Source: Arabidopsis thaliana (lineage: Eukaryota; Streptophyta; Magnoliopsida; Brassicales; Brassicaceae). From it: a stretch of 64,000 nucleotides of DNA. This document shows positions 2,885 through 57,244 of this stretch, piece by piece. How positions within the stretch are numbered: position 1 is the first letter of the stretch; the number at the start of each line of letters is the position of its first letter. The position numbers were made by a program, and so were the translations under genes. The notes beneath the pieces are model-generated. The model saw nothing but the letters and a program-made list of their open reading frames with translations. It did no database searches and had not been told where the DNA came from. The DNA lies in NCBI RefSeq assembly GCF_000001735.4, contig NC_003071.7, forward strand, positions 17,087,443 to 17,151,442. Reading direction: 5' to 3'.

Positions 2885-5159
2885 TTTGAAACTGAGTTTT
2901 AGGGTTAGGGTTTCGAATTTGGGGATGAAGAAGAAGAAGGAGAGATTCAAAAGGAAGAAAGGGGTTATGGAGGAATGAGGTTAGAACACGGGAGAAAGAC
3001 GACGAGGGGTTTAAAGACAAAGAGGAAGAGGAAGTAGAAGGTGCTTGCTTCCGTCTTCGTCTACTGCGCGTGGGTCTTACGCTCCGGAATCATACTCGCT
3101 AACTTACACTAGTGATTCATGAAACTTATAATATCCAAAATTAATCGCTTTCCAAAATAAATGATAAACAGCAAATCTAGAAAAATAAATTGGGAAATTT
3201 ATTTTGAATAACACTTTTCCTAAGAGTAGCTAAATTAAATTTTATGATGTGCTAGTGGGTTTTTTAATTTTGAATTTGTTTTTGATTGACTATTATATAT
3301 GTTTAAGATAGTAAGTAGTAATTTTGATCTTCAAAAAAATATTAAACTGTTATTTTTAAAGAATTGACTTAATAGTTCATTTAATATTTGGGAAAGCAGA
3401 TTTAAATTATTATTTTTTTTTCATAAATTAGGATATCAGTTTTAAGATTTCTTTTAAATATATAATTGACTTAATAGTTCATTTAAAATAATTTACGTAA
3501 ATTACTTGGGGAATATATCATTTATCTCCCAAAAAATAAACTTAGTAATAATTTTTCGCGATTCGTTATATATCTTTTTTTTTTATATAATTACTTTCTT
3601 GATTTCACAAATCTCAAATAGATTGCGTTTAAGGTGACTGCAAAGATATGAATTTCTCACCATACATAATCTCTACAATTGTCTTGATACCAAACTATAC
3701 GTGTTTCGTAATCGAGGGGGCTATAAAAGTAAAACAAAGCATATGGATTAGTTTGACGTTATAGTTATAGTAGTGTCGATTTGGTAGTGAATACAGAATA
3801 CTCATGGTCATGGTGCATGTTGTTGACTTTTTGGGATCGAGCTTTGAGACGGGACACCACCAAGTGATTAGTTTTGTGTATCCAAATTTAATTCTTGGGC
3901 GTCTAAAATATCTTAGTCTTTGGTGCATTATCATTCTACATAGTCGTCATTTCACGATTATGCTGAATATATATTTGGGTACAAAGGGCAAAAGACAAGG
4001 GCGAGTGTAAAACCAAGAAGCAGAGGAAGAGCGTGGGAGATATCGGTATCCACATGTTAAAAGCACGTTGACTTCATTGTGTTGGAGTGAAGGAAGGGTT
4101 TTTGTTTGTCTCCGTTAATCTCTTTCTCTCGAAACTTCTCTCTTCTGATCTAAACCCTAAAAATAATGCTATATTATCTCCTCACTTTCCAACTGTGTGT
4201 CGTTTTTGAGTCTCTTTTCCGTCACGCATGTCTCCTCTCCCCTCTGCATCGCTCATCATTTCTTCTCTCTCACCTCATACTATCACAAATAGAGTATTGT
4301 TTATTGATGCATTTTAAATAGATATAACTATTGGCTTTTCGTTCACGTTCAAAGTTCAAAACTATGAAATAATGAAATCCGCTAGGAAATGAGAAGGTGT
4401 ATATTGGTATAAAGCATCATTTTTTCACGAGAGTTTTGAAAGACACAAGCCAAAATAATGAAAGACTACATTATATTCTTCACAAAAGAACACAAACTCA
4501 TCAAAGACTAACATTATGAAAAAGTAAACCCTCTGATCTGATATACGTACCTTTCTTGGGAGGTGCTTGCAAAGAGAGGTGGTGGTGGGTGCAATGAAAA
4601 TCTAATCCATACTTTGACCACCGTTGAAAATAGACAACTTTGTAGAATTAGAGATAAACATGTGACTGTGGTCCGTTATAAGAAATTAGAATAAACAGGT
4701 TACAGACTAAATGTGTGCTCGTTTACATACATGGTTTTATAAGTTCAACCACAAATAAGCTTACATCTATCGGAATTTTTTTTTCCAAAACAACTTCGAC
4801 TTCTCTCTTATGATCTTATCTAAACCGACTAGTAATTCCAATTTAATCTTATTCGAGTTTTTTTTTTTTTTTTTTTTTTGGTAATAGAAAGAAATAAGAT
4901 CAAACGTTGGTCGCAAACGTGGAATGTGTTGAAATAACCCATCAATCAAACACTCAAGGTGTGAATGGTAACAAACTAACAATGGTAATAAGCTTTAGGG
5001 ATTTTCAATAGCATCATATTATATGCACTAACTAAAAATAGCTCCCACAAGGCCACACCAATTTTTTTATAAAAATAAAAGCAATAAGGTATTTTTACCT
5101 TTTTAAAATTCATTAAAAAAAAAAAATCAACATTAAAATAGTTATCTTCCCTCTCCTTG
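2885..5159. other. Intergenic region between bZIP17 and the R3H gene
   Basis: The right end of bZIP17's promoter and 5' UTR lies at about 2885-3100. The rest is AT-rich with no convincing coding frame. A run of 22 T residues lies at 4858-4879. A pyrimidine-rich stretch with a telo-like AAACCCTAA at about 4100-4300 looks like a transcript leader or promoter, but I cannot link it to an ORF. Confidence 0.5.
2897..2913 (-). promoter_or_regulatory. Telo-box pair in bZIP17 leader
   Basis: On the gene strand the leader just before the ATG reads AAACCCTAACCCTAAAA, two overlapping telo boxes (AAACCCTAA). In Arabidopsis such boxes sit near the start sites of many growth-related and translation genes and are bound by telomere-repeat-binding factors. 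The match is seen directly; its use here is inferred. Confidence 0.55.
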
Positions 5160-44766: not shown

Positions 44767-45037
44767 TCCTAAAGACTCTTCTTTCTTTCTTCTTCTTTGT
44801 GTTGGTTTATATCAGACCGCTTTGTTCTTTGTATATTGTGTAGACTTTATTGACTTTGAACAGCATGTCTTTATAAACATTTCTTGAGTGTATTCCTCTT
44901 TTGCAGCTAGTTCAAACTTTTTGAGTACAAACACTAGTTCAAGTATGAATTCGACAATAGTTTTAGTACCTTACACAATTAAGCAATAGATTGATGGTTA
45001 TGCTAAACCGTTTTTGATACTTGGTTACTAATACTTA
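44767..45037. other. 3' UTR of EEL and intergenic DNA
   Basis: EEL's 3' UTR runs into AT-rich spacer; no gene seen. Confidence 0.5.
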
Positions 45038-45060
45038 TTGGGCTTCTGATTACGGCCCAA
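45038..45060 (+). promoter_or_regulatory. Inverted TTGGGC/GCCCAA pair of the PPR gene
   Basis: TTGGGCTTCTGATTACGG and CCCAA form an inverted pair of site II boxes 100 bp before the PPR start codon, as is common for genes of organelle-targeted proteins. Confidence 0.6.
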
Positions 45061-45159
45061 TTAAATCGAGTGTCTAATTATTCGTTCCTTCTTCTTCTTC
45101 GAGCAACGACAGTCCCTGAGAATCCAAATCGGAAACAATCTCCGGCAATTCAATAGTAA

Positions 45160-47112
45160 ATGCGTTGCTCAGTTTCCTCTGTTGTTCGTCCACTATCAGT
45201 AGATCCTGCGACAGCCATAGCTACTTTGTGCTCAAAGGGTAACCTTCGAGAAGCTTTCCAGAGATTCCGACTCAACATCTTCACAAACACTTCTCTCTTC
45301 ACCCCTTTTATTCAATCATGCACCACCAGACAATCTCTTCCGTCCGGAAAGCAGCTCCATTGTCTTCTCGTCGTCTCCGGATTCTCCTCCGACAAGTTCA
45401 TATGCAATCATCTGATGAGCATGTACTCCAAGCTTGGAGATTTTCCTTCCGCTGTTGCAGTATATGGACGTATGCGTAAGAAGAATTATATGTCATCTAA
45501 CATACTCATCAATGGGTATGTTCGTGCAGGCGATTTGGTAAATGCCCGGAAGGTGTTTGATGAAATGCCTGATAGAAAGCTCACAACTTGGAATGCTATG
45601 ATTGCTGGTTTGATCCAGTTTGAGTTTAACGAAGAGGGTTTGAGTTTGTTTAGGGAAATGCACGGATTGGGGTTTTCGCCTGATGAATATACTCTTGGTA
45701 GTGTTTTTAGCGGATCTGCTGGGTTGAGGTCAGTGTCTATAGGGCAGCAGATTCATGGCTACACGATCAAATATGGGCTTGAGTTGGATTTAGTTGTTAA
45801 TAGTTCGTTGGCTCATATGTATATGAGAAATGGGAAATTGCAAGATGGCGAGATTGTTATAAGATCAATGCCGGTTCGTAATTTGGTTGCATGGAATACA
45901 CTCATCATGGGGAACGCGCAAAACGGATGTCCTGAAACCGTGCTTTATCTGTATAAGATGATGAAAATCTCAGGTTGTAGGCCGAACAAGATCACATTTG
46001 TAACTGTGCTCAGTTCTTGTTCTGACTTAGCGATAAGAGGTCAAGGTCAGCAGATTCATGCGGAAGCTATTAAAATTGGGGCTAGCTCTGTCGTAGCTGT
46101 AGTTAGTTCATTGATCAGTATGTATTCAAAATGTGGGTGTCTTGGAGATGCAGCTAAAGCTTTCTCGGAACGTGAAGATGAAGATGAAGTGATGTGGAGC
46201 TCAATGATTTCTGCTTATGGGTTTCATGGACAAGGCGATGAGGCAATCGAGCTGTTTAATACTATGGCAGAGCAGACGAACATGGAGATAAACGAGGTCG
46301 CGTTTCTGAATTTACTTTATGCGTGTAGTCATTCTGGCTTAAAAGACAAAGGGCTTGAGTTGTTTGACATGATGGTGGAAAAATACGGGTTCAAGCCAGG
46401 TTTAAAGCACTACACTTGTGTGGTGGATTTGCTCGGTCGAGCAGGCTGTTTGGATCAAGCCGAGGCAATAATAAGGTCTATGCCAATAAAAACAGACATT
46501 GTTATATGGAAAACATTGTTATCTGCGTGTAACATACACAAAAACGCAGAAATGGCACAGAGAGTCTTTAAAGAGATTCTTCAGATTGACCCTAATGACT
46601 CTGCTTGTTACGTCCTGCTTGCAAATGTTCACGCCTCAGCTAAGAGATGGCGCGATGTATCAGAGGTGAGAAAATCGATGAGAGATAAGAATGTGAAGAA
46701 AGAAGCGGGAATCAGCTGGTTTGAACACAAAGGTGAAGTTCATCAGTTTAAGATGGGAGATCGCTCTCAGTCTAAATCTAAAGAGATCTATTCATACCTG
46801 AAAGAACTGACTCTGGAGATGAAGCTGAAGGGATACAAGCCTGATACAGCGTCAGTATTGCATGATATGGATGAGGAGGAGAAAGAATCAGACTTGGTGC
46901 AGCACAGCGAGAAACTAGCGGTTGCATTTGCGCTCATGATATTACCTGAAGGTGCACCGATTAGAATAATCAAGAACTTGCGGGTTTGCAGTGATTGCCA
47001 TGTTGCTTTCAAATATATATCGGTGATCAAGAACCGAGAGATCACGTTAAGAGATGGTAGTAGATTCCATCATTTCATTAACGGAAAGTGTTCTTGCGGC
47101 GATTATTGGTAG
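45160..47112 (+). CDS. PLS-type pentatricopeptide repeat protein with DYW domain
   Basis: One intron-less exon of 650 residues. About a dozen 31-36-residue PPR repeats can be followed (for example NARKVFDEMPDRKLTTWNAM, then AMIAGLIQFEFNEEGLSLF). E motifs and a complete DYW deaminase domain come next, with the zinc-binding HSEKLAVAF and CSDCH and the terminal CSCGDYW. DYW proteins carry out C-to-U editing at defined sites in mitochondrial or plastid RNA. The N-terminus is consistent with an organelle target peptide, but the organelle and the RNA target cannot be read here. Recalled as At2g41080. DNA downstream of this gene is duplicated behind CML10. Confidence 0.93.
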   Translation: MRCSVSSVVRPLSVDPATAIATLCSKGNLREAFQRFRLNIFTNTSLFTPFIQSCTTRQSLPSGKQLHCLLVVSGFSSDKFICNHLMSMYSKLGDFPSAVAVYGRMRKKNYMSSNILINGYVRAGDLVNARKVFDEMPDRKLTTWNAMIAGLIQFEFNEEGLSLFREMHGLGFSPDEYTLGSVFSGSAGLRSVSIGQQIHGYTIKYGLELDLVVNSSLAHMYMRNGKLQDGEIVIRSMPVRNLVAWNTLIMGNAQNGCPETVLYLYKMMKISGCRPNKITFVTVLSSCSDLAIRGQGQQIHAEAIKIGASSVVAVVSSLISMYSKCGCLGDAAKAFSEREDEDEVMWSSMISAYGFHGQGDEAIELFNTMAEQTNMEINEVAFLNLLYACSHSGLKDKGLELFDMMVEKYGFKPGLKHYTCVVDLLGRAGCLDQAEAIIRSMPIKTDIVIWKTLLSACNIHKNAEMAQRVFKEILQIDPNDSACYVLLANVHASAKRWRDVSEVRKSMRDKNVKKEAGISWFEHKGEVHQFKMGDRSQSKSKEIYSYLKELTLEMKLKGYKPDTASVLHDMDEEEKESDLVQHSEKLAVAFALMILPEGAPIRIIKNLRVCSDCHVAFKYISVIKNREITLRDGSRFHHFINGKCSCGDYW

Positions 47113-47219
47113 CTGGGCAGTTAAAGTATGCTATGACTCTCTGCTTCAGAGTCTTTCTGGAGTCTTAAGCACTCAGATTGGATCGGGAAGCCATCTGGGA
47201 CGAAAGCATTCAGCAGCAA

Positions 47220-47680
47220 GGGTAAAATTACACTGCGGGTAGTAGCTTTGTAGTCTACCTTGAGATTGCTCCTGCCTGTGTTATTCTTGAGTCAGGAACA
47301 TGAAGTGGTTTGCTGTCAACTTTACTTACTCAAGCCATCTCCGCAAGGTAGAAACTATGGTTCGCGTTATTTCGTATGTACCATGTTTTTGGTCGTTTGT
47401 GTAGTTTCTAACCTTCCACACCCTTGGCTTGCGATTCTTTCCAAAGCAGAGATGTTAGATCAGAGGATGGAGTGGGTTCTCAAGTAGAATGCACTTGCGA
47501 ATCCCTCAGATCAGATTTTTCATAGGTAAAGTTCGTTAACTTCAACAACACCACTTTAGTAAACATGTGATAATCAATCGTCATAAGCATCTTCGATTCA
47601 TTTTTATCTTATGCAAGTGTTTGCTTTATTATGATTTGTTAAGTTTTGCATAAATACGGACGTTGAAGCACTTCCCAGAA
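47220..47680. repeat. Segmental duplication, copy A (downstream of the PPR gene)
   Basis: Shares long blocks with 49781-50320, such as GTACCATGTTTTTGGTCGTT, CTCAAGTAGAATGCACTTG and AATCCCTCAGATCAGATTT. It marks one edge of the unit whose duplication produced the calmodulin-like genes. The short frames in it are not conserved between copies. Confidence 0.85.
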
Positions 47681-47750
47681 CTCATGAGTGTTTTTATAAA
47701 CTATTTATTAAAAGTTAGTATAAGAAAACTATAACATAAAAGTAAAATAT

Positions 47751-48240
47751 AATTTAGACAAATGTAGCGATTGGTCCAGTTACTCATCCAAAATTCCAAA
47801 TGAATCTTCCACCGTTGATAATTCTATTCCATTGTTTTCTTCTGTAGAAGACCATATATTATTAAGTCTCTAGTCCATTGTCAATAAATGGAAATACAAA
47901 AAAAAAAAAAAAAAAAAAAAGAAGAAGAAGAAAAAGACAGCATTTAATGAACGAAAATAATATTAATGAATTTGGAAGAAGGAACGAACCAACGAGAAAA
48001 ATCAACGAAATAATTTAGACAAATGTAGCGATTGGTCCACTACCCATCCAAAAGTCCAAATGAATACTTCACCGTTGATAATTCTATTCAATTGTTTTCT
48101 TCTGTAGAAGACCATATATTATTAAGTCTCTAGTCCATTGTAAATAAATGTTTCTTTCAAATAAATGGAAATACAAAAAAGAAAAGAAAAAAAAGACAGC
48201 ATTTAATGATGATAACGATTTGGAAGAAGGAACCAACCAA
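47751..48240. repeat. Tandem duplication in the CML10 promoter (261-bp offset)
   Basis: Two adjacent copies begin AATTTAGACAAATGTAGCGA at 47751 and 48012 and share GTTTTCTTCTGTAGAAGACC and ATTAAGTCTCTAGTCCATTG. A single, more diverged copy begins at 52483 in front of CAM2, so the module is an ancestral calmodulin promoter element that doubled here. A run of 20 or more A residues ends copy 1. Confidence 0.85.
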
Positions 48241-48380
48241 TTAGAGTAACAAACCAAGGAGGCGACTCACATGAAAGCAAAAGCTGACATGGCAGTGAAT
48301 TCAGTTTTATAAAAAAGGCTTCAAGGCCGAGAGTTCGTAGTACAAACTCTTCTCTCAGTCATCACAGAAAATAAAAAACA

Positions 48381-49176
48381 ATGGCGAATAAGTTCACTAG
48401 ACAACAGATTTCAGAGTTTAGGGAACAGTTCAGCGTATACGACAAGAATGGTGATGGTATGGTTCATCGTCTCTATTCCTCTAATCGTACATATTGGATC
48501 CTGAATCATCTTCAAAGCACTGAAAATGACTAACACAAGTCCTTGATTACTTCTTGTAGGTCACATTACCACAGAGGAGTTCGGTGCCGTGATGCGTTCC
48601 CTCGGTTTAAACCTGACCCAAGCTGAGCTTCAGGAGGAGATCAACGATTCGGATTTAGATGGTGACGGAACCATCAATTTCACTGAGTTCTTGTGCGCAA
48701 TGGCTAAGGACACTTACTCTGAGAAAGACCTCAAGAAAGATTTCAGACTCTTTGACATAGACAAGAATGGTTTCATCTCAGCTGCTGAAATGAGATATGT
48801 GAGGACTATCCTCCGGTGGAAGCAAACTGATGAAGAAATCGATGAGATTATCAAGGCAGCTGATGTTGATGGTGATGGTCAGATCAACTACAGAGAGTTT
48901 GCCAGGCTTATGATGGCCAAGTGAGATTTAAACAACTTTTCCGCTTCCCCTTTTTTTACTACCTCTTATCTAATTTCATAAAGAATGTTCCTCTCTTGTT
49001 CTTAAATTTCATTCTGAGTTCTTGTGTGTATGGCTAGGAATCAAGGTCATGATACTAAATATGACACAACTGGTGGCACTTTGGAGAGGGACTTGGCGGC
49101 CGGGGTTGCCAAAAATATCATCGCAGCGCCAATGACCGACTTCATCAAAAATTTGTTCGAAGCGTTGTTTTCTTGA
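48381..49176 (+). CDS. CML10: CML10 (CaBP-22), calmodulin-like protein with C-terminal extension
   Basis: Three exons (48381-48456, 48560-48920, 49038-49176) give 191 residues, matching CaBP-22. Four EF-hand loops are visible: [36 protein letters not shown] and [12 protein letters not shown]. The first intron splits a Gly codon in loop 1, as in calmodulin. The second intron begins inside AAGTGAG, where calmodulin has AAG and its TGA stop, and the intron body matches the CAM2 3' UTR. Splicing adds a 45-residue tail ([10 protein letters not shown] ... LFEALFS) shared with TCH3. If the intron is retained, translation would stop at once and give a 146-residue four-EF-hand protein. The TATA-like TTTATAAAA is near 48307. 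Confidence 0.95.
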
Positions 49177-49780
49177 AATGGTACATCAGTAACTTTATGC
49201 CATTAGGGTCTGGCTGGTATGTTAGATCTCTCTAAAAAGGCGTTTGATCTTTGAAAATAATTTCTATGTAATAAATTTATTGTGTTACCATCTTTTCTTG
49301 CATGCAATTTATTAAAATGAGTTTGTAATATGGTTTCAGTATCGAATATAATTGGGGTATCAATGTATCTTTTGAGAAAAACATTTAAAACGTAGCAGAA
49401 CTAATTATTGAAAACTGGTAGCATTACTAAAAATTGATCTAAATCGGTTAATGATTTGGCACATACAGTGATCAAATCAGCTAAGCCTCATATCTCACCG
49501 TCCCAGAGTTCTTCAAGACTCTTATAAGGACTCATCTAATGAATAATGACATGCCTCGCACCAACCTGCCCTGCAACATTGAAAACACACGTCTACAATT
49601 TCGATAACCCAAGTGTTTTGAGCAAAACAAAGGACGCCCTTTGACCCATTTGGACTACAATGTGTGGAAAATTACTGCATGTTCAATATCAGAAAACTTG
49701 GATAACATGTCTTCGATATGGGCTTTTCTTATTTTGTACCCGTGTAATTTCGCTGGCCCAAAATCCAAAGCAACAAGGGT
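49177..49780. other. 3' flank of CML10
   Basis: Blocks such as TGAGTTTGTAATATGGTTTC and GGCACATACAGTGATCAAAT recur behind TCH3 at 52060-52310, so gene and 3' flank were duplicated together. No gene seen. Confidence 0.6.
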
Positions 49781-50320
49781 AAATTTGTATGCAGTACATG
49801 TGGCATGTTGGGTCATATGGAAACAGGTCACAAGACTCAGATTCTTTACATTGCGGCGGGTAGTAGTAGCTTTCTAGTCTACCTTGAGATTGCCCCTGCC
49901 CGTGATTCTTGAGTCGGGCACAGGAAGTGGTTTTCTGTCAACTTTACTTGCTCAAGCCATCCCCGCAAGGTAGAAACTTCTGTGGTCTTTCTCGTTATTT
50001 CTTATGTACCATGTTTTTGGTCGTTTGTGTAGTTTCTTCTAACCTTCCACACACTTGTCTTGCGAATTCCTTCCACAGCAGAGATGTTAAATCAGGAATA
50101 TTCAGGATGTAGAAACTTCTCTGCTCTTTCTCAAGTAGAATGCACTTGTGGAATCCCTCAGATCAGATTTCATTGGTAACGTTCGTTAACTTCAACAACA
50201 ACACTTTACTAAACATGTGCTAATCAATTGTCATACGCTTGTATTTCTTCGATTCATTTTTATCTTATGCAAGTGTTTTCTCTATTATGATTTATTTAGT
50301 TTTGCATAAATAAGGACACT
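49781..50320. repeat. Segmental duplication, copy B (upstream of TCH3)
   Basis: Homologous to 47220-47680 behind the PPR gene, with small insertions such as CTGCTCTTT-type blocks. It shows that the CML10-TCH3 unit was duplicated together with PPR flank. Confidence 0.85.
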
Positions 50321-50688
50321 CCTTCGGAGTCAGTATAAGAAAACTATAACCTAAAATATAAATTAGGCAAATGTCCACTCACCCATCCAAAATTCCATTG
50401 TAAATAAATGTTTCTTTCAAATAAATGAAAAAAAAAAAAAAAAACAAGTTGGAAGAAGGAACCAACCAAGTAATTGCCAGTCAAAGGAGGCGACTCACAC
50501 TTGAAAGGATAAGCTGACATGGCAGACAACGATCCTGCGTAGAAATTGCGTGAACGTGGAAAAGTTTGAGGATATAGCCGTCATTTCAAATAATTCGGGT
50601 ACTATTATATAAGGCTTCAAGTCCTGGTTCGTAGTACAAATTGTCTCACAAACTCTTCTTTCAGTCATCACAGAAAACAAAAAAAACA
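50321..50688 (+). promoter_or_regulatory. Promoter and leader of TCH3
   Basis: TATATAAGG near 50606 is a likely TATA box. GCTGACATGGCAG and GCGTGAACGTG blocks are shared with the promoters of CML10 or CAM2. The positions that are CCGCGT in CAM2 read CTGCGT (50535-50540) and TTGCGT here. TCH3 is known to be induced by touch, darkness and heat. Confidence 0.55.
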
Positions 50689-51964
50689 ATGGCGGATAAG
50701 CTCACTGACGATCAGATTACAGAATACAGGGAATCTTTCAGGTTATTCGACAAGAATGGTGATGGTATGGTTCATCAACTCTTTCCATTTAATCGTAATG
50801 TTGGATCATGATCATCTTCAAAGCAATGAAATGACTAACACAAGTCCTTGATTACTTTTTGTAGGTTCCATTACGAAAAAGGAGCTCGGTACCATGATGC
50901 GTTCAATCGGTGAAAAACCGACAAAAGCTGATCTTCAGGACTTGATGAACGAAGCGGATTTAGATGGTGATGGAACCATCGATTTCCCTGAGTTCTTGTG
51001 CGTAATGGCTAAGAATCAAGGTCATGATCAAGCGCCGCGTCACACTAAAAAAACAATGGCGGATAAGCTCACTGACGATCAGATTACAGAGTACAGGGAA
51101 TCTTTCAGGTTATTCGACAAGAATGGTGATGGTATGGTTCATCAACTCTTTCCATTTAATCGTAATGTTGGATCATGATCATCTTCAAAGCAATGAAATG
51201 ACTAACACTAGTCCTTGATTACTTTTTGTAGGTTCCATTACGAAAAAGGAGCTCCGTACCGTGATGTTTTCCCTCGGTAAAAACCGGACAAAAGCTGATC
51301 TTCAGGACATGATGAACGAAGTGGATTTAGATGGTGATGGAACCATCGATTTCCCTGAGTTCTTGTACCTAATGGCTAAGAATCAAGGTCATGATCAAGC
51401 GCCGCGTCACACTAAAAAAACAATGGTGGATTATCAGCTCACTGACGATCAGATCTTAGAATTCAGGGAAGCCTTCCGCGTATTCGACAAGAATGGTGAT
51501 GGTATGGTTCATCGTCCCTTTCTCGCTAATCGTACATATTGGATCCTGATCATCTTCAAAGCACTGAAATGACTAACATAAGTCATTGCTTACTTTTTGT
51601 AGGTTACATTACCGTGAATGAGCTCCGTACTACTATGCGCTCCCTTGGTGAAACCCAAACAAAAGCTGAGCTCCAGGACATGATCAACGAAGCGGATGCA
51701 GATGGTGACGGAACCATCAGTTTCTCTGAGTTTGTGTGTGTAATGACTGGTAAAATGATTGACACTCAGTCTAAGAAAGAAACGTACAGAGTTGTGAATC
51801 AAGGTCAGGGTCAAGTGCAGCGTCACACTAGAAATGACAGAGCTGGTGGCACCAATTGGGAGAGGGACATAGCGGTCGGGGTTGCCAGCAATATCATCGC
51901 TTCGCCAATTTCCGACTTCATGAAAGATAGGTTTAAAGATTTGTTCGAAGCGCTGTTATCTTGA
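50689..51964 (+). CDS. TCH3: TCH3 (CML12), six-EF-hand touch-induced calcium sensor
   Basis: Four exons (50689-50764, 50865-51131, 51232-51501, 51603-51964) give 324 residues as known for TCH3. The protein is three repeats of the calmodulin N-lobe. Loops are DKNGDGSITKKE and [12 protein letters not shown] twice, then DKNGDGYITVNE and [12 protein letters not shown]. Repeats are joined by [14 protein letters not shown] linkers, each followed by a new start-like MADKLTDDQ or [10 protein letters not shown]. No C-lobe is present: after the sixth EF-hand the frame runs [13 protein letters not shown] and then into the VNQGQG ... LFEALLS tail shared with CML10. Introns 1 and 2 differ at a single base in 100. 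Exons 2 and 3 are therefore a recent tandem copy. Part of the calcium-response machinery for mechanical stimuli. Confidence 0.97.
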
Positions 51965-52936
51965 AATGACACGTCAGTAACTTTATGCCAATAGGGTCTG
52001 ACAATTATGTTAGATCTCTCTCAAAAGGCGTTTCATCTAATGACAATAATTTCTATGTAATAAATTTATTGCATGTGTTAGTGTGTTACCATCTTCAGTT
52101 GTGTGCAATTTATTAAAATGAGTTTGTAATATGGTTTCAGTATCGAATATAATTGGGGTATTAATGTATCTTTTGAGAAAAACATTGAAACGTAGCAGAA
52201 CTAATCATTGAAAACTGGTAGCTCACTACTAAAAATTGATCTAATATGATAAATCGGTTAATGATCTGGCACATACAGTGATCAAATCAGCTAAGCCTCA
52301 TATCTTACCATGTTAATCAATTGTCATAAGCATGTATTTCTTCGATTTGTTTTTATCCGATGCAAATTTTTGCTTTGTGATTGTTATTGCAGAAACAAGG
52401 ACGTTCGATGCACTTCCAAAAAACATATAATGTTACAGACAATGTAGTATTAAAAAGTAGTAGTTAAAAGCAAAATCTTTAATAATTTAGACAAATGTAG
52501 CGACAGCTCCACTTACCATCCAAACGAATACTTCACAATTGATAATTCTAATAAATGTTTTTTTTTAAAAAAGACAGCATTTAACAATAACGAGAAAACA
52601 AATACTAACGAATTGGAACCAGAAACCAACGAACCAAGGAAAATCAAAGGAGGCGACTCACTGGAAAGGAAAAGGTGAGATGGCAAAGTCAACGATCCGC
52701 GTAGAAACCGCGTGAACGTGTGATCCATCTCTTCTCATGTCAACCTGGCGCTTAAATTTAAAACTCAAATTTATGGCATTCTCGTAATTTCATCCCCAAA
52801 CCGAGGTCCTTCCCGACATTAACAATAATCCAGGTAAATAAAACGCCTCAAGTCCGCATTCGTAGCACACGAATCGTCTCACAAACTCTTTCGTTTTTCC
52901 CTTTTTCTCCAATCACAGAAAAGAAAAGAAAAAACA
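51965..52936. other. 3' flank of TCH3 and promoter of CAM2
   Basis: The first 350 bp repeat the 3' flank of CML10. From 52483 the ancestral calmodulin promoter module AATTTAGACAAATGTAGCGA appears once. The leader before CAM2 ends AAAAAACAATGG as in TCH3 and CML10. No other gene seen. Confidence 0.6.
52697..52713 (+). promoter_or_regulatory. Two CGCG boxes of CAM2
   Basis: CCGCGTAGAAACCGCGT holds two CCGCGT motifs (VCGCGB type), the binding site of CAMTA calmodulin-binding transcription factors, 225-240 bp before the start codon. The aligned positions in TCH3 are altered and in CML10 missing. Confidence 0.65.
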
Positions 52937-53750
52937 ATGGCGGATCAGCTCACAGACGATCAGATCTCAGAATTCAAGGAAGCCTTCAGCTTATTCGACA
53001 AGGATGGTGATGGTATGCTTCATCCTCCCTTTCCCTCTATCATCGTAGGTCTTGGCCGTATAATTCTGATTTAGTTTCTGCTTGATTTGGTTCCCTTTTG
53101 ATATGTATCGATTACCGTGGTGACGGATCCATTGTTCGTATCCTCGCATTGACTCTTTTCGTTTTCGATGTTCCAAATCATTATTGAATTCAAGGATTTG
53201 TTTGTGCCTTTGTTCAAATTAAAGATCTATGTAGTTCGGATGAAATATTTGTGAATCAGCCCTGTGGTGTTAGTGATGATTCATGTTTTCAATTCGTATT
53301 TTGACCAGTTTTTATTGATTTGTTCTGATTCTGGATTTGCATCGTAGTAACACCAATCTTTGATTACTTTGTGTAGGTTGCATTACCACAAAGGAGCTTG
53401 GTACCGTGATGCGTTCCCTCGGTCAAAACCCAACCGAAGCTGAGCTTCAGGACATGATCAACGAAGTTGATGCGGATGGTAACGGAACCATTGATTTCCC
53501 GGAGTTCTTGAACCTAATGGCTAGGAAAATGAAGGACACTGACTCTGAGGAAGAACTCAAGGAAGCTTTCAGAGTTTTCGACAAAGACCAGAACGGTTTC
53601 ATCTCAGCTGCTGAATTGAGACATGTGATGACTAACCTCGGCGAGAAGCTTACTGATGAAGAAGTTGATGAGATGATTAAGGAAGCTGATGTTGATGGTG
53701 ATGGTCAGATCAACTACGAAGAGTTTGTGAAGGTTATGATGGCTAAGTGA
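52937..53750 (+). CDS. CAM2: CAM2, calmodulin
   Basis: Two exons (52937-53012 and 53377-53750) encode the standard 149-residue calmodulin. The four EF-hand loops are [36 protein letters not shown] and [12 protein letters not shown], and the C-terminus is KVMMAK followed by TGA. The single intron splits the Gly codon in loop 1 in phase 1, the calmodulin-family position. Ca2+-bound calmodulin controls many enzymes and transcription factors. CAM2 is the likely parent of the neighbouring CML10 and TCH3; its 3' UTR sequence reappears as an intron in CML10. Recalled as At2g41110. Confidence 0.98.
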
Positions 53751-54011
53751 GGATTGAAACAACTTCTTCGGCTTTCTCCTTTTTTTTTTTTGACTACCTT
53801 CTTATGTAATTTCATAAAGAATGTTCCTTCGCTTTGTTCTAAAATTTCATTCATGGCTGGTTTTTGCTGGTTAAAAAGACAGGAATGTTATGTGTTTTTA
53901 CCTTTTGTCTAAATGACTCATTGTTCATGTTATTGACAGGTTCAGAACCTGATTCTTGAAATATAACAGTAATGAGATCTTCTTCTATTATCTTCGTATT
54001 GATCATTCTCT

Positions 54012-54977
54012 TTAGAATCTGTCGTCGTATGTAGAAGCAAGAAGATGCTTATCGGTTGCGGTAAGGGTAGGGAGCTTAACCCGAGTTGGCTCAGACGATG
54101 AATGTAAAGGAGAGAAGAGTATAGAAGTTGTCTCAGACATTCCATTGTTGAAGTCAAGCACAGTCTCTAAGCTGTAAATACTCTCTCCAGCTGCATAACC
54201 ACCTAAGAGTTGATACGATCTGTCTGATTGATCCATCGTCAAACACATATCTTCTGAACCTATCATCAATCAATTCAGATTTCTTGAGTGTCACAATTAG
54301 GTTCAATTTGCTAAATGGTTTCCTCAATCAAAAATTCAAAATTCAAAACTTACAGGCAGCAAGTTCAAGCTGAGTTTGATAAACGAATTCAAGAACTGCG
54401 GAGACATCTCGCTCGAATTCATGAAACGGTCCGTCTTCGAAATTCATCTTCCTTAGCTTACATACTCCTTCTCCTAACTCCATCATCGCTCCTTTATGGT
54501 TCTTCAAATCCCAAAACACTCACTAAAATTACCTCAAACGTGAACGAAAACGAGCAATAGATGGAGTTAAAAGGAGAGTAGATTTACGTTGTTGAATAGA
54601 TGGTGAAATCCAACAGCACATTGAAGAATTCCATGGATTAAGGTACGAGTTGGTTCCTCTGCTTGAATCCAAAGAGCTTCAAGCGCGTCATGACTTTTGT
54701 AATAATCCCTCTTGTTGAAGAGAGTCACTGCTTCCTCAAAGCTCCAATATTCTTCCTTATCCTCGTCACTATCCTCTTCGTCTTCTCCGGCGTGGTCGTT
54801 GTATCTGACGATTGATCTTCGACTGAAACGGACGCGTATGGAGCTAAATTTTGTGGAGGCTCGAATCGTTGAAGCAGTAACAGAGATTGGAGAAGAAGGG
54901 ATTAAGGAGCTGAAGAAAGAAGATGGAGGAAGCGTGAAAGATGAAGGAACCTGGAAATGTTTCGAAGAAACTGCCAT
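54012..54977 (-). CDS. DUF309 domain protein, plastid-targeted
   Basis: Three exons (54977-54588, 54501-54354, 54259-54012) give 261 residues. The first 60 are Ser/Thr/Arg-rich with almost no acidic residues, as in a chloroplast transit peptide. An acidic patch (EDEEDSDEDKEE) is followed by the DUF309 domain: YWSFEEAVTLFNKRDYYKSH, DALEALWIQAEEPTR, LIHGILQCAVGFHHLFNNN and HKGAMMELGEG. That family has a helical bundle with conserved H-x3-E/W positions and unknown function. The C-terminal 80 residues (CSEDMCLTMDQSDRSYQLL...) are outside the domain. I start at MAVSSKHFQ; the next upstream in-frame codon in the ORF is not ATG. Recalled as At2g41120. Confidence 0.87.
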
Positions 54978-55917
54978 TATCAAAGTCAAAGGTCGAGCTC
55001 TGTCTCTACTGCATGGTTCTGGCTTGCGCCAGTTTTGTGGTCACCGTTTTACCAAAACTTTGTAATTGGGCCACTATTTGGGTCCTTATTTTTTATATAA
55101 TTTAGGCCCATATTTTATGGCGAAGCCTTCCTCATATCATATGGTTGTCTCATTCGTAAATTATTTTTCTGCAGTAGCTTTCTCTTATGATTATCAAATT
55201 TGTTGATTATTTAGGGCTTTTATGTTGTCAAAAAAAAAAAATTAGGGCTTTTGAATACTCAAGTTTTTCCAGACATTAAGTTAAAACAAATACTGTATAT
55301 TATTTAATTTTTGTTAAATAACAAATTTATGTTATCGCATTGCACTGTGTGAGATTTATCCGGACAAAACACAATGATAGAAGCAGCATAAATCATATCA
55401 GGATATGCCTTTTATTGTTTATCTTTAATACCTTAGAAATGGTATCTTATCATAATAACTTAAAGGATCATTATTATGGTAGTGGTAAAACATCATTATT
55501 ATTCATAAGTAAAGATTTAAAGAATGTTCAATTTTTTGAGATTTGTTTTTGAATTTTTGAATTTTGGAAATGCAGTAATATACTATATAGTCCCAAAAGT
55601 CCGTATGTATCTTCAGTTCAATTGATGGATCATATAGAACTATTTAGAATGATGATGGTGGCAAGACAATGACCTAATTAAGGACCCTTCCTAAAAATTT
55701 CAAACTCTATAGCAACTTTTTCCCCACCAATATATATATAAATACAAAAATCAAGTATTTAACATCTAAAATAAAAAAAATAAAAAAAATAATCTACACT
55801 CTCTACCCTCTCATTTCACGTATATATAATCCATCTTTTAGGACAGAACCCACCGAAAGCTCCACAAACCCCATTAATTAACAAAAAACCAAAAGAAGGC
55901 GGCGCAAACAAAAGATA
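54978..55917. other. Intergenic region between divergent DUF309 and bHLH106 genes
   Basis: The DUF309 side holds TGGGCC at 55067-55072 and GGCCCA at 55105-55110 (site II boxes). The bHLH106 side has TATATATAAATAC near 55733 and GTATATATAATCC near 55822 as TATA candidates. The frame at 54712-55065 is the reverse shadow of DUF309. Confidence 0.55.
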
Positions 55918-57244
55918 ATGCAACCAGAGACCTCAGATCAGATGTTGTACTCGTTTCTTGCCGGAAACGAAGTCGGCGGTGGAGGGTACTGCGTCTCCGG
56001 CGACTACATGACGACTATGCAGAGCTTATGTGGGTCTTCGTCGTCGACGTCATCGTATTACCCACTGGCGATCTCCGGCATCGGAGAAACGATGGCTCAA
56101 GACAGAGCTTTAGCTGCTTTGAGGAACCACAAAGAAGCTGAGAGAAGAAGGAGAGAGAGGATCAATTCTCATCTCAACAAGCTTCGTAACGTACTCTCTT
56201 GTAATTCTAAGGTAATATAAACTTTTGATACTTTTTCATTTGGCGTATGTATCTCTCCTCGTACATATGATGTTTATACATCTGTACGTATATATTTCTT
56301 TGAAATTTTAAGAAAAGATTTTTGAAATGGGTATATAATTAGGGTTTTGCATCTTCTCTAACCCAGAGTTTACATCTTTAAAATTTTCTCATGTTTCATT
56401 CGATTTGGTGTTAGCTCATGAATACTGTACTTTTTCATGATAACATTTTATAATCATTTGGTTTCAATTGAGTCTTTTTTGTCTTACTATTCTTACTTAT
56501 TAACAAGCACATATTTATCAAAGATGATCCCTAATTTTCTACATTTATAATTCTAAAGATTGATATATATTTTGATTTGAATATTCAAAACTGGCGAGTA
56601 GTGATCAGATGAGAAAAACGAAAAGCTTCATGGCCTTTTTGTGAAGCTCGTTGGGATAGTATATCACTTTTTGGGAAAGTTCTCAAGCTTTTTCAGTTGA
56701 TTTGATTTGATACAAACATCAAATTTCAACTTCTTGATCCAAACTTTTCATTGTAATTTCATGTTTCTATTTTCAGACCGATAAAGCCACACTGCTCGCC
56801 AAAGTAGTTCAACGAGTCAGAGAACTTAAACAGCAAACCCTAGAGACCTCCGACTCCGACCAAACATTATTACCATCAGAGACCGACGAAATTAGTGTTC
56901 TACACTTTGGAGACTATTCAAACGACGGTCATATAATCTTCAAAGCCTCTCTATGTTGTGAAGATAGATCAGATCTCTTGCCGGACCTTATGGAGATTCT
57001 CAAGTCTCTTAACATGAAGACTCTCCGAGCTGAGATGGTAACCATTGGTGGTCGGACAAGAAGTGTTCTTGTCGTAGCTGCTGACAAAGAGATGCACGGC
57101 GTCGAGTCTGTGCATTTTTTGCAAAATGCTCTCAAGTCGCTGCTTGAGCGGTCAAGCAAGTCGTTGATGGAACGTAGTTCTGGTGGTGGAGGAGGAGAAC
57201 GGTCAAAGCGGCGTCGTGCGCTGGATCACATCATAATGGTGTGA
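55918..57244 (+). CDS. BHLH106: bHLH106 transcription factor
   Basis: Two exons (55918-56211 and 56777-57244) encode 253 residues as known for bHLH106. The basic region HKEAERRRRERIN (residues 71-83) has the H-E-R residues of E-box binders. Helix 1 follows (SHLNKLRNVLSCNSK), and exon 2 starts with TDKATLLAKVVQRVRELKQQ, helix 2. An ACT-like domain occupies the C-terminal half (about 140-210) and ends with a basic KRRRALDHIIMV tail. The protein is reported as a salt-tolerance regulator acting through E-box and G-box genes. Recalled as At2g41130. Confidence 0.95.

Follow-up and report, generated by a model that had tools for sequence, protein, structure and literature searches.

Plant calmodulins that carry an additional tail are the closest described counterparts of the gene considered here. 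The extended calmodulins, namely petunia CaM53, rice OsCML1/OsCaM61, OsCML2, and OsCML3, and Arabidopsis CAM5 and CAM7, consist, like CML10, of a calmodulin and an extra tail. Specifically, the excerpted rice study describes for OsCML1-3 an additional intron at the codon of the last calmodulin residue, and its authors propose that Cam genes fused to additional exons (PMC1797041), while extended splice variants of CAM5 (At2g27030.3) and CAM7 (At3g43810.2) are given in the excerpted part of a second publication (PMC12609287). The tails of these proteins are basic and end in a CaaX box (CVIL or CTIL in the rice excerpt, CRIL in CAM5, and a CSIL candidate in CAM7), unlike the tail of CML10, which is of the TCH3 type, ends in FEALFS, and has no CaaX box; it lacks a cysteine at the fourth-last place and is not a basic CaaX tail of the CaM53/OsCML1 type. 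The second related system is intronization, as modelled in the excerpt of PMC9612004, which CML10 resembles in that formerly exonic sequence is now intronic and latent splice sites are used. In that model, however, the process takes place within the coding sequence of one gene, whereas the splice sites of CML10 would derive from two recombined genes, and its unspliced product ends at the original stop codon. Intron 2 of CML10 combines these two known kinds, the terminal introns of extended calmodulins and the introns made from exonic sequence.

The window, i.e., the whole stretch of 64,000 nucleotides of Arabidopsis thaliana DNA that was analysed (chromosome 2, C2:17087443-17151442), contains CML10, TCH3, and CAM2 as a tandem trio on the + strand, with the following features:

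48381..48456, + strand: CML10 exon 1 (hand gene model, 191-aa translation).
48457..48559, + strand: CML10 intron 1, TCH3-type (alignment to TCH3 introns).
48560..48920, + strand: CML10 exon 2, with an N-lobe part that is a patchwork of CAM2 and TCH3 types and a CAM2-type C-lobe at 48709-48920 (dS, informative sites).
48683..48708, + strand: EF-hand 2 end, TCH3-type, at its coding position in CML10 and repeated at the end of intron 2.
48921..49013, + strand: 5' part of CML10 intron 2, CAM2-type 3' UTR sequence (alignment, shuffle control, genome search).
48922..48924, + strand: former calmodulin stop codon TGA inside the donor AA/GTGAG (direct reading; aligned with the CAM2 stop at 53748-53750).
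49014..49037, + strand: 3' part of CML10 intron 2, TCH3-type EF-hand 2 end with the acceptor TAG/G (BLAST block).
49038..49176, + strand: CML10 exon 3, the 45-aa TCH3-type tail and stop codon (genome search, alignment).
49177..49500, + strand: CML10 3' UTR and downstream flank, TCH3-type (alignment to the TCH3 downstream region).
50689..51964, + strand: TCH3 (CML12), relative of the CML10 acceptor, tail, and flank (hand gene model, 324 aa).
52937..53750, + strand: CAM2, closest relative of the CML10 C-lobe (hand gene model, 149 aa; dS).
53751..53852, + strand: CAM2 3' UTR segment homologous to CML10 intron 2 (alignment; assigned to the UTR from its position past the stop).

The hand models of the three genes all translate cleanly. 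CAM2 is taken to be At2g41110 and TCH3 to be CML12, and the names of the remaining CaM genes are likewise our assumption. The identifiers At2g41090 for CML10 and At2g41100 for CML12 agree with the table in the excerpt of PMC5983762. The CaM set used for comparison comprises seven full-length matches with 97-100% identity, which rank first among 103 listed entries, and the genome searches covered the 119.66-Mb genome.

Intron 2 of CML10 spans 48921-49037 (117 nt, phase 2, AA/GTGAG...GGCTAG/G) and, from the DNA and the frame only, is present at the codon of the last calmodulin residue. Its donor reads ATGGCCAA/GTGAG at 48920/48921, and CAM2 ends ATGGCTAAGTGAGG at the corresponding place, in agreement with the earlier note, according to which the calmodulin stop codon lies inside the donor. 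Of the seven Arabidopsis CaM genes compared, four read AAGTGAG at the stop, and the match to CAGGTAAGTAT is 7 of 11 for CML10 intron 2, 7 for the stop context of CAM2, and 6 for the four ordinary introns checked. A stop at this place is unremarkable on its own, since a GT(A/G)A donor turns the first full codon of any phase-2 intron into TAA or TGA, as stated in the excerpt of PMC2809761.

The body of the intron matches the CAM2 3' UTR, as had been proposed, and this holds for the first 93 nt. When the intron is aligned without its first 7 and last 25 bases, the stretch 48930-49012 pairs with 53757-53850 at a local score of 58.5, and a stricter alignment of the 93-nt 5' part gives 82 identities in 87 aligned bases, with a longest identical run of 22 bases (from 48971 against 53807) and six indels (1, 1, 6, 1, 3, and 1), four of which are single-base. 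Both stretches are 45% T (T content 0.45, compared with 0.25-0.26 in the exons) and a poly-T run falls within the alignment, so that a chance likeness of two T-rich stretches comes to mind; the score nevertheless lies far above the 2000 dinucleotide shuffles that served as the control (mean 15.9, sd 2.4, maximum 29), the 22-base run is unbroken, and the similarity extends without a break into the coding C-lobe within one BLAST block, which together make chance a negligible explanation, rejected on the shuffles. The block in question, from a self-BLAST of 45000-56000, pairs 48531-49014 with CAM2 53348-53852 (81% of 505 columns) and runs unbroken through the N-lobe, C-lobe, stop, and UTR. The relation is also specific: as a genome query, the intron segment finds only CAM2 besides itself and the CAM2 UTR finds only CML10 in return, in a DNA search that scores the best candidates only and skips simple repeats. 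Comparison between genes relies on the scores of the gap-tolerant local aligner, because its identity fractions are high even between unrelated genes; by score, the intron reaches 64 with CAM2, 18-22 with the six other CaM genes, and 18 with TCH3, the latter values being in the background range.

At 49014, the BLAST source switches from CAM2 to TCH3. The stretch 49014-49053 matches TCH3 50988-51028 at 93% of 41 columns with one gap and a second TCH3 stretch, 51355-51395, at 88%, and 49054-49499 matches TCH3 51827-52309 at 83% of 484 columns, all by self-BLAST. The matching TCH3 stretch encodes the last part of EF-hand 2 and then the linker NQGHD, and its match takes in the last 24 nt of the intron and the acceptor, in keeping with the earlier proposal that the 3' end of intron 2 matches TCH3 coding sequence. 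The homologies, this change of source, and the reading frame are direct observations, and intron 2 is homologous to exonic sequence of its relatives, the CAM2 3' UTR and TCH3 coding sequence. The tail had been called foreign, a description that does not hold: TCH3 is the only other genome match of the 45-aa tail (58% identity) and also matches the acceptor and the flank, and therefore the tail is that of the adjacent gene. Exon 3 agrees with TCH3 in 121 of 139 aligned bases, by the aligner whose identities are high even for unrelated genes, and the downstream flank in 299 of 323 (K=0.078). The tail has no Pfam match at E 1 or better, and its divergence from TCH3 (dN 0.19, dS 0.17) is without sign of purifying selection; the two indels of the tail alignment from 49054 (3 and 12) are both multiples of three, although two events prove little, and those of the 3' flank alignment are 1, 12, 1, 2, and 8. 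TCH3 shares with CML10 the tail family, the MAK-NQGHD junction, and the 3' flank, but has three N-lobe units, no full C-lobe, and no intron at that junction. An A-to-G change creating the acceptor GCTAG/G from a TCH3-like GCTAAG was considered and dropped, as the EF-hand 2 end of CAM2 itself reads GCTAGG.

TCH3 is made up of three N-lobe units (50689-51964), and the linkers between them close with AAAAAACAATGG. This resembles the gene's own 5' UTR and start, as though in-frame duplications had copied exon-intron-exon units along with part of the 5' UTR. The surroundings of CML10 and TCH3 are also repeated: 47239-47661 and 49863-50317 agree at 84% over 459 columns, a segmental duplication, and a direct duplication upstream of CML10 (47749-47992 and 48010-48240) agrees at 84% over 244 columns.

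Upstream of the intron, the C-lobe of CML10 is closest to CAM2, with the lowest dS among the seven CaM genes (0.25; 8.5 changes, 40.5 sites), followed by CAM3 (0.72). As CAM2 and CAM3 differ by 0.62, the CAM2-type source of CML10 postdates the CAM2-CAM3 split. CML10 is also fast-evolving, its C-lobe having a dN of 0.15 to CAM2 compared with 0.01 between CAM2 and CAM3. The 5' half is more mixed. Intron 1 agrees with TCH3 intron 3 in 94 of 100 aligned bases and with TCH3 intron 1 in 92 of 99; the N-lobe part of exon 2 has a dS of 0.15, 0.11, and 0.40 to TCH3 units 1, 2, and 3 and of 0.26 to CAM2 (about 31 sites). Informative sites of the 5' UTR and exon 1 agree with TCH3 unit 1 in 17 of 22 and with CAM2 in 5 of 22, those of 48570-48642 are CAM2-type (9/11), and those of 48650-48707 are TCH3-type (12/13); a duplicate CAM2 row labelled CAM3 was taken into this alignment and left uncounted. 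Moreover, CML10 has two copies of the EF-hand 2 end (48683-48708 and 49014-49038), which agree in 22 of 27 columns. The gene is not the complete calmodulin plus tail of the earlier note: TCH3-like sequence makes up its 5' UTR, intron 1, and some of the N-lobe, and CAM2-like sequence other parts. Four stretches of the 191-aa product match Pfam EF-hand_1, in line with four EF hands of the calmodulin type. The 5' half looks like the product of repeated gene conversion, and conversion among CML10, TCH3, and CAM2 may have shifted the apparent sources and ages.

Introns at the same codon can be read elsewhere in this genome. CAM5 (L030, 2558-3677) has, like CML10, a donor, AA/GTGAGG, that contains the calmodulin stop, and this donor can be joined in frame, through an acceptor TAG/G, to an exon about 1 kb downstream ending in CRIL; the tail is read from TAG/G because this agrees with what we take to be the CAM5 isoform. 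CAM7 (L031) has lysine-rich tail candidates ending in CSIL. A mechanical scan for acceptors 40-1800 nt behind the stop, followed by a tail of set length and a C-x-x-x-like end, gives six candidates for CAM5, four for CAM7, and two for CAM3, and none behind CAM2, CAM6, CAM1, CAM4, and CML10. The two CAM3 candidates were set aside, as they lie about 1.2 kb downstream in a repeat of the CAM3 3' end, which comprises the last codons, the stop, and the 3' UTR and is 88% identical over 356 columns; the two copies occupy 2476-2828 and 3690-4026 of the reverse complement (L029, reverse strand), and TTTAACAG, which precedes the second copy, looks like a splice acceptor. The case foreseen earlier as a refutation, that of outgroup genes already having an intron there with unrelated sequence, holds in part within this genome: CAM5 has a donor in the same codon that can be joined in frame, and CAM7 has a published extended variant. 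The CML10 intron body scores at background with CAM5 (22) and CAM7 (22). These precedents show plant calmodulins making repeated use of this intron position, and CML10 is the less novel for it. They do not explain its UTR-derived body and TCH3-type acceptor; the CML10 intron is 117 nt of identifiable UTR and coding sequence, whereas that of CAM5 would be about 1 kb.

The origin that we consider probable is a recombination that joined a CAM2-type C-lobe, stop codon, and 3' UTR to a TCH3-type EF-hand end and tail. CML10 would be a mosaic of its tandem neighbours, in which recombination linked a CAM2-type segment (C-lobe, stop codon, and the first ~95 nt of the 3' UTR) with a TCH3-type segment (EF-hand 2 end, tail, and 3' flank). 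The stop context AAG-TGA-G, which already fits the 5' splice site AA/GTGAG, would have become the donor and the T-rich CAM2-type UTR the body of the intron, with the T/G-rich stretch and the acceptor coming from the TCH3 EF-hand end (CTGAGTTCTTGTGTGTATGGCTAG/G). The donor ATGGCCAA/G and the acceptor ATGGCTAG/G interrupt homologous EF-hand ends at the same codon, which keeps splicing in frame. The order of events and their direction, from UTR to intron, are inferred by parsimony. The donor may have been co-opted and not new, given the intron at the last calmodulin codon of rice OsCML1-3 and the like reading of CAM5; by the same analogy, the position of the intron may predate CML10, in which case the body alone would have been replaced, as CAM5 can be spliced in frame from the same codon and CAM5 and CAM7 have extended variants in print. 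The absence of BoCML10 and BoCML12 from the excerpted main text of a cabbage CaM/CML paper weakly fits a young gene. A contig search of other genomes with the CAM2 protein gave no plant locus; the single relative among 21 stretches is a calmodulin that shares 68% identity with CAM2. It comes from a bacterial MAG labelled Verrucomicrobiaceae (JAIYDP010000149.1) and may be a eukaryotic contaminant.

A variant of this explanation, which differs in which gene was the frame, has a TCH3-type gene with N-lobe and tail receiving the CAM2 C-lobe, stop, and UTR as a cassette, by conversion or template switching, and we give it somewhat less than even probability. It would leave an EF-hand 2 end on both sides of the insert (48683-48708 and 49014-49037), and the repeat of this end in CML10 is why it remains a serious competitor of a deletion fusion; the TCH3-type sites of 48650-48707 and of the 5' UTR with exon 1, as well as the TCH3-type intron 1, speak for it too. 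The CAM2-type sites at 48570-48642, conversely, mean that later gene conversion can explain the 5' TCH3 signal equally well, and a single deletion running from an upstream CaM gene into TCH3 accounts for the 3' junction. A deeper origin, in which the ancestor of CAM2 and CML10 already had an intron of the CaM53, OsCML1-3, and CAM5 type, would have CML10 keep the intron and change its tail exon while CAM2 lost splicing, its present 3' UTR being the former intron. The rice introns, the published CAM5 and CAM7 variants, and the in-frame joining of CAM5 to its CRIL tail agree with this reading; it is nevertheless improbable, because the acceptor region of CML10 is TCH3-type coding sequence and not an old intron end, the mechanical scan of 1.8 kb behind CAM2 gives no in-frame tail with a CaaX-like end, a tblastn with the CAM5 tail reaches CAM2 only at E 1.3 or worse among the matches listed, and the CML10 intron body is at background with CAM5 and CAM7.

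Removal of intron 2 leaves an open 191-aa reading frame, in which the exon 2/3 join reads MMAK-NQGHD, while TCH3's own reads MAK-NQGHD. Retention would give, as had been claimed, a tail-less protein, which on paper has 146 aa and ends at the old TGA, going by the reading frame alone; the unspliced mRNA would be translated to this product. The predicted masses are 21.7 kDa (spliced) and 16.9 kDa (unspliced). A T-rich body suits plant intron recognition, and CTGAG, which lies in the TCH3-type part 21 nt before the intron end, is one of four branch-point-like words in its last 60 nt. A retained last intron with a stop is not expected to trigger junction-dependent decay, and since intron 2 is the last intron of the model, none is expected for CML10. 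We infer that splicing is dominant over retention. If the "22" in the name CaBP-22 stands for kDa and the name derives from a cDNA, as we presume, the existence of the spliced form is supported indirectly, given that 21.7 kDa fits the published name. The CML10 gene is listed as CaBP-22 in the excerpt of PMC2559843, and, according to Cho et al. 2016 (cited in PMC10069634), CML10 binds phosphomannomutase when Ca2+ is present and increases the Vmax of this enzyme by about 28%. CML10 mRNA is reported there to be induced by H2O2.

More generally, it is possible, though rather unlikely, that recombination between internally repetitive EF-hand genes gives rise to introns in frame from birth and that CML10 is a live switch between a 146-aa calmodulin-like and a 191-aa tailed protein. 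In this scheme, the stop-embedded donor and the homologous EF-hand acceptor would already be matched in codon phase, and the old stop would keep the unspliced mRNA productive. No earlier account of the origin of CML10 intron 2 was found in the literature searched, although one may exist. Most spliceosomal introns can no longer be traced to their source, their starting sequence having decayed. In CML10, every part of intron 2 can be assigned to a living neighbour, the donor and body to CAM2 and the acceptor to TCH3, which would make it a detailed case of a gene gaining both an intron and a new protein end. As the unspliced transcript ends at the normal stop, a tail could be tried without losing the original protein, and this, together with the AAG-TGA-G that is a possible donor in four of seven CaM genes, suggests a reason for the repeated gain of tails in plant calmodulins.
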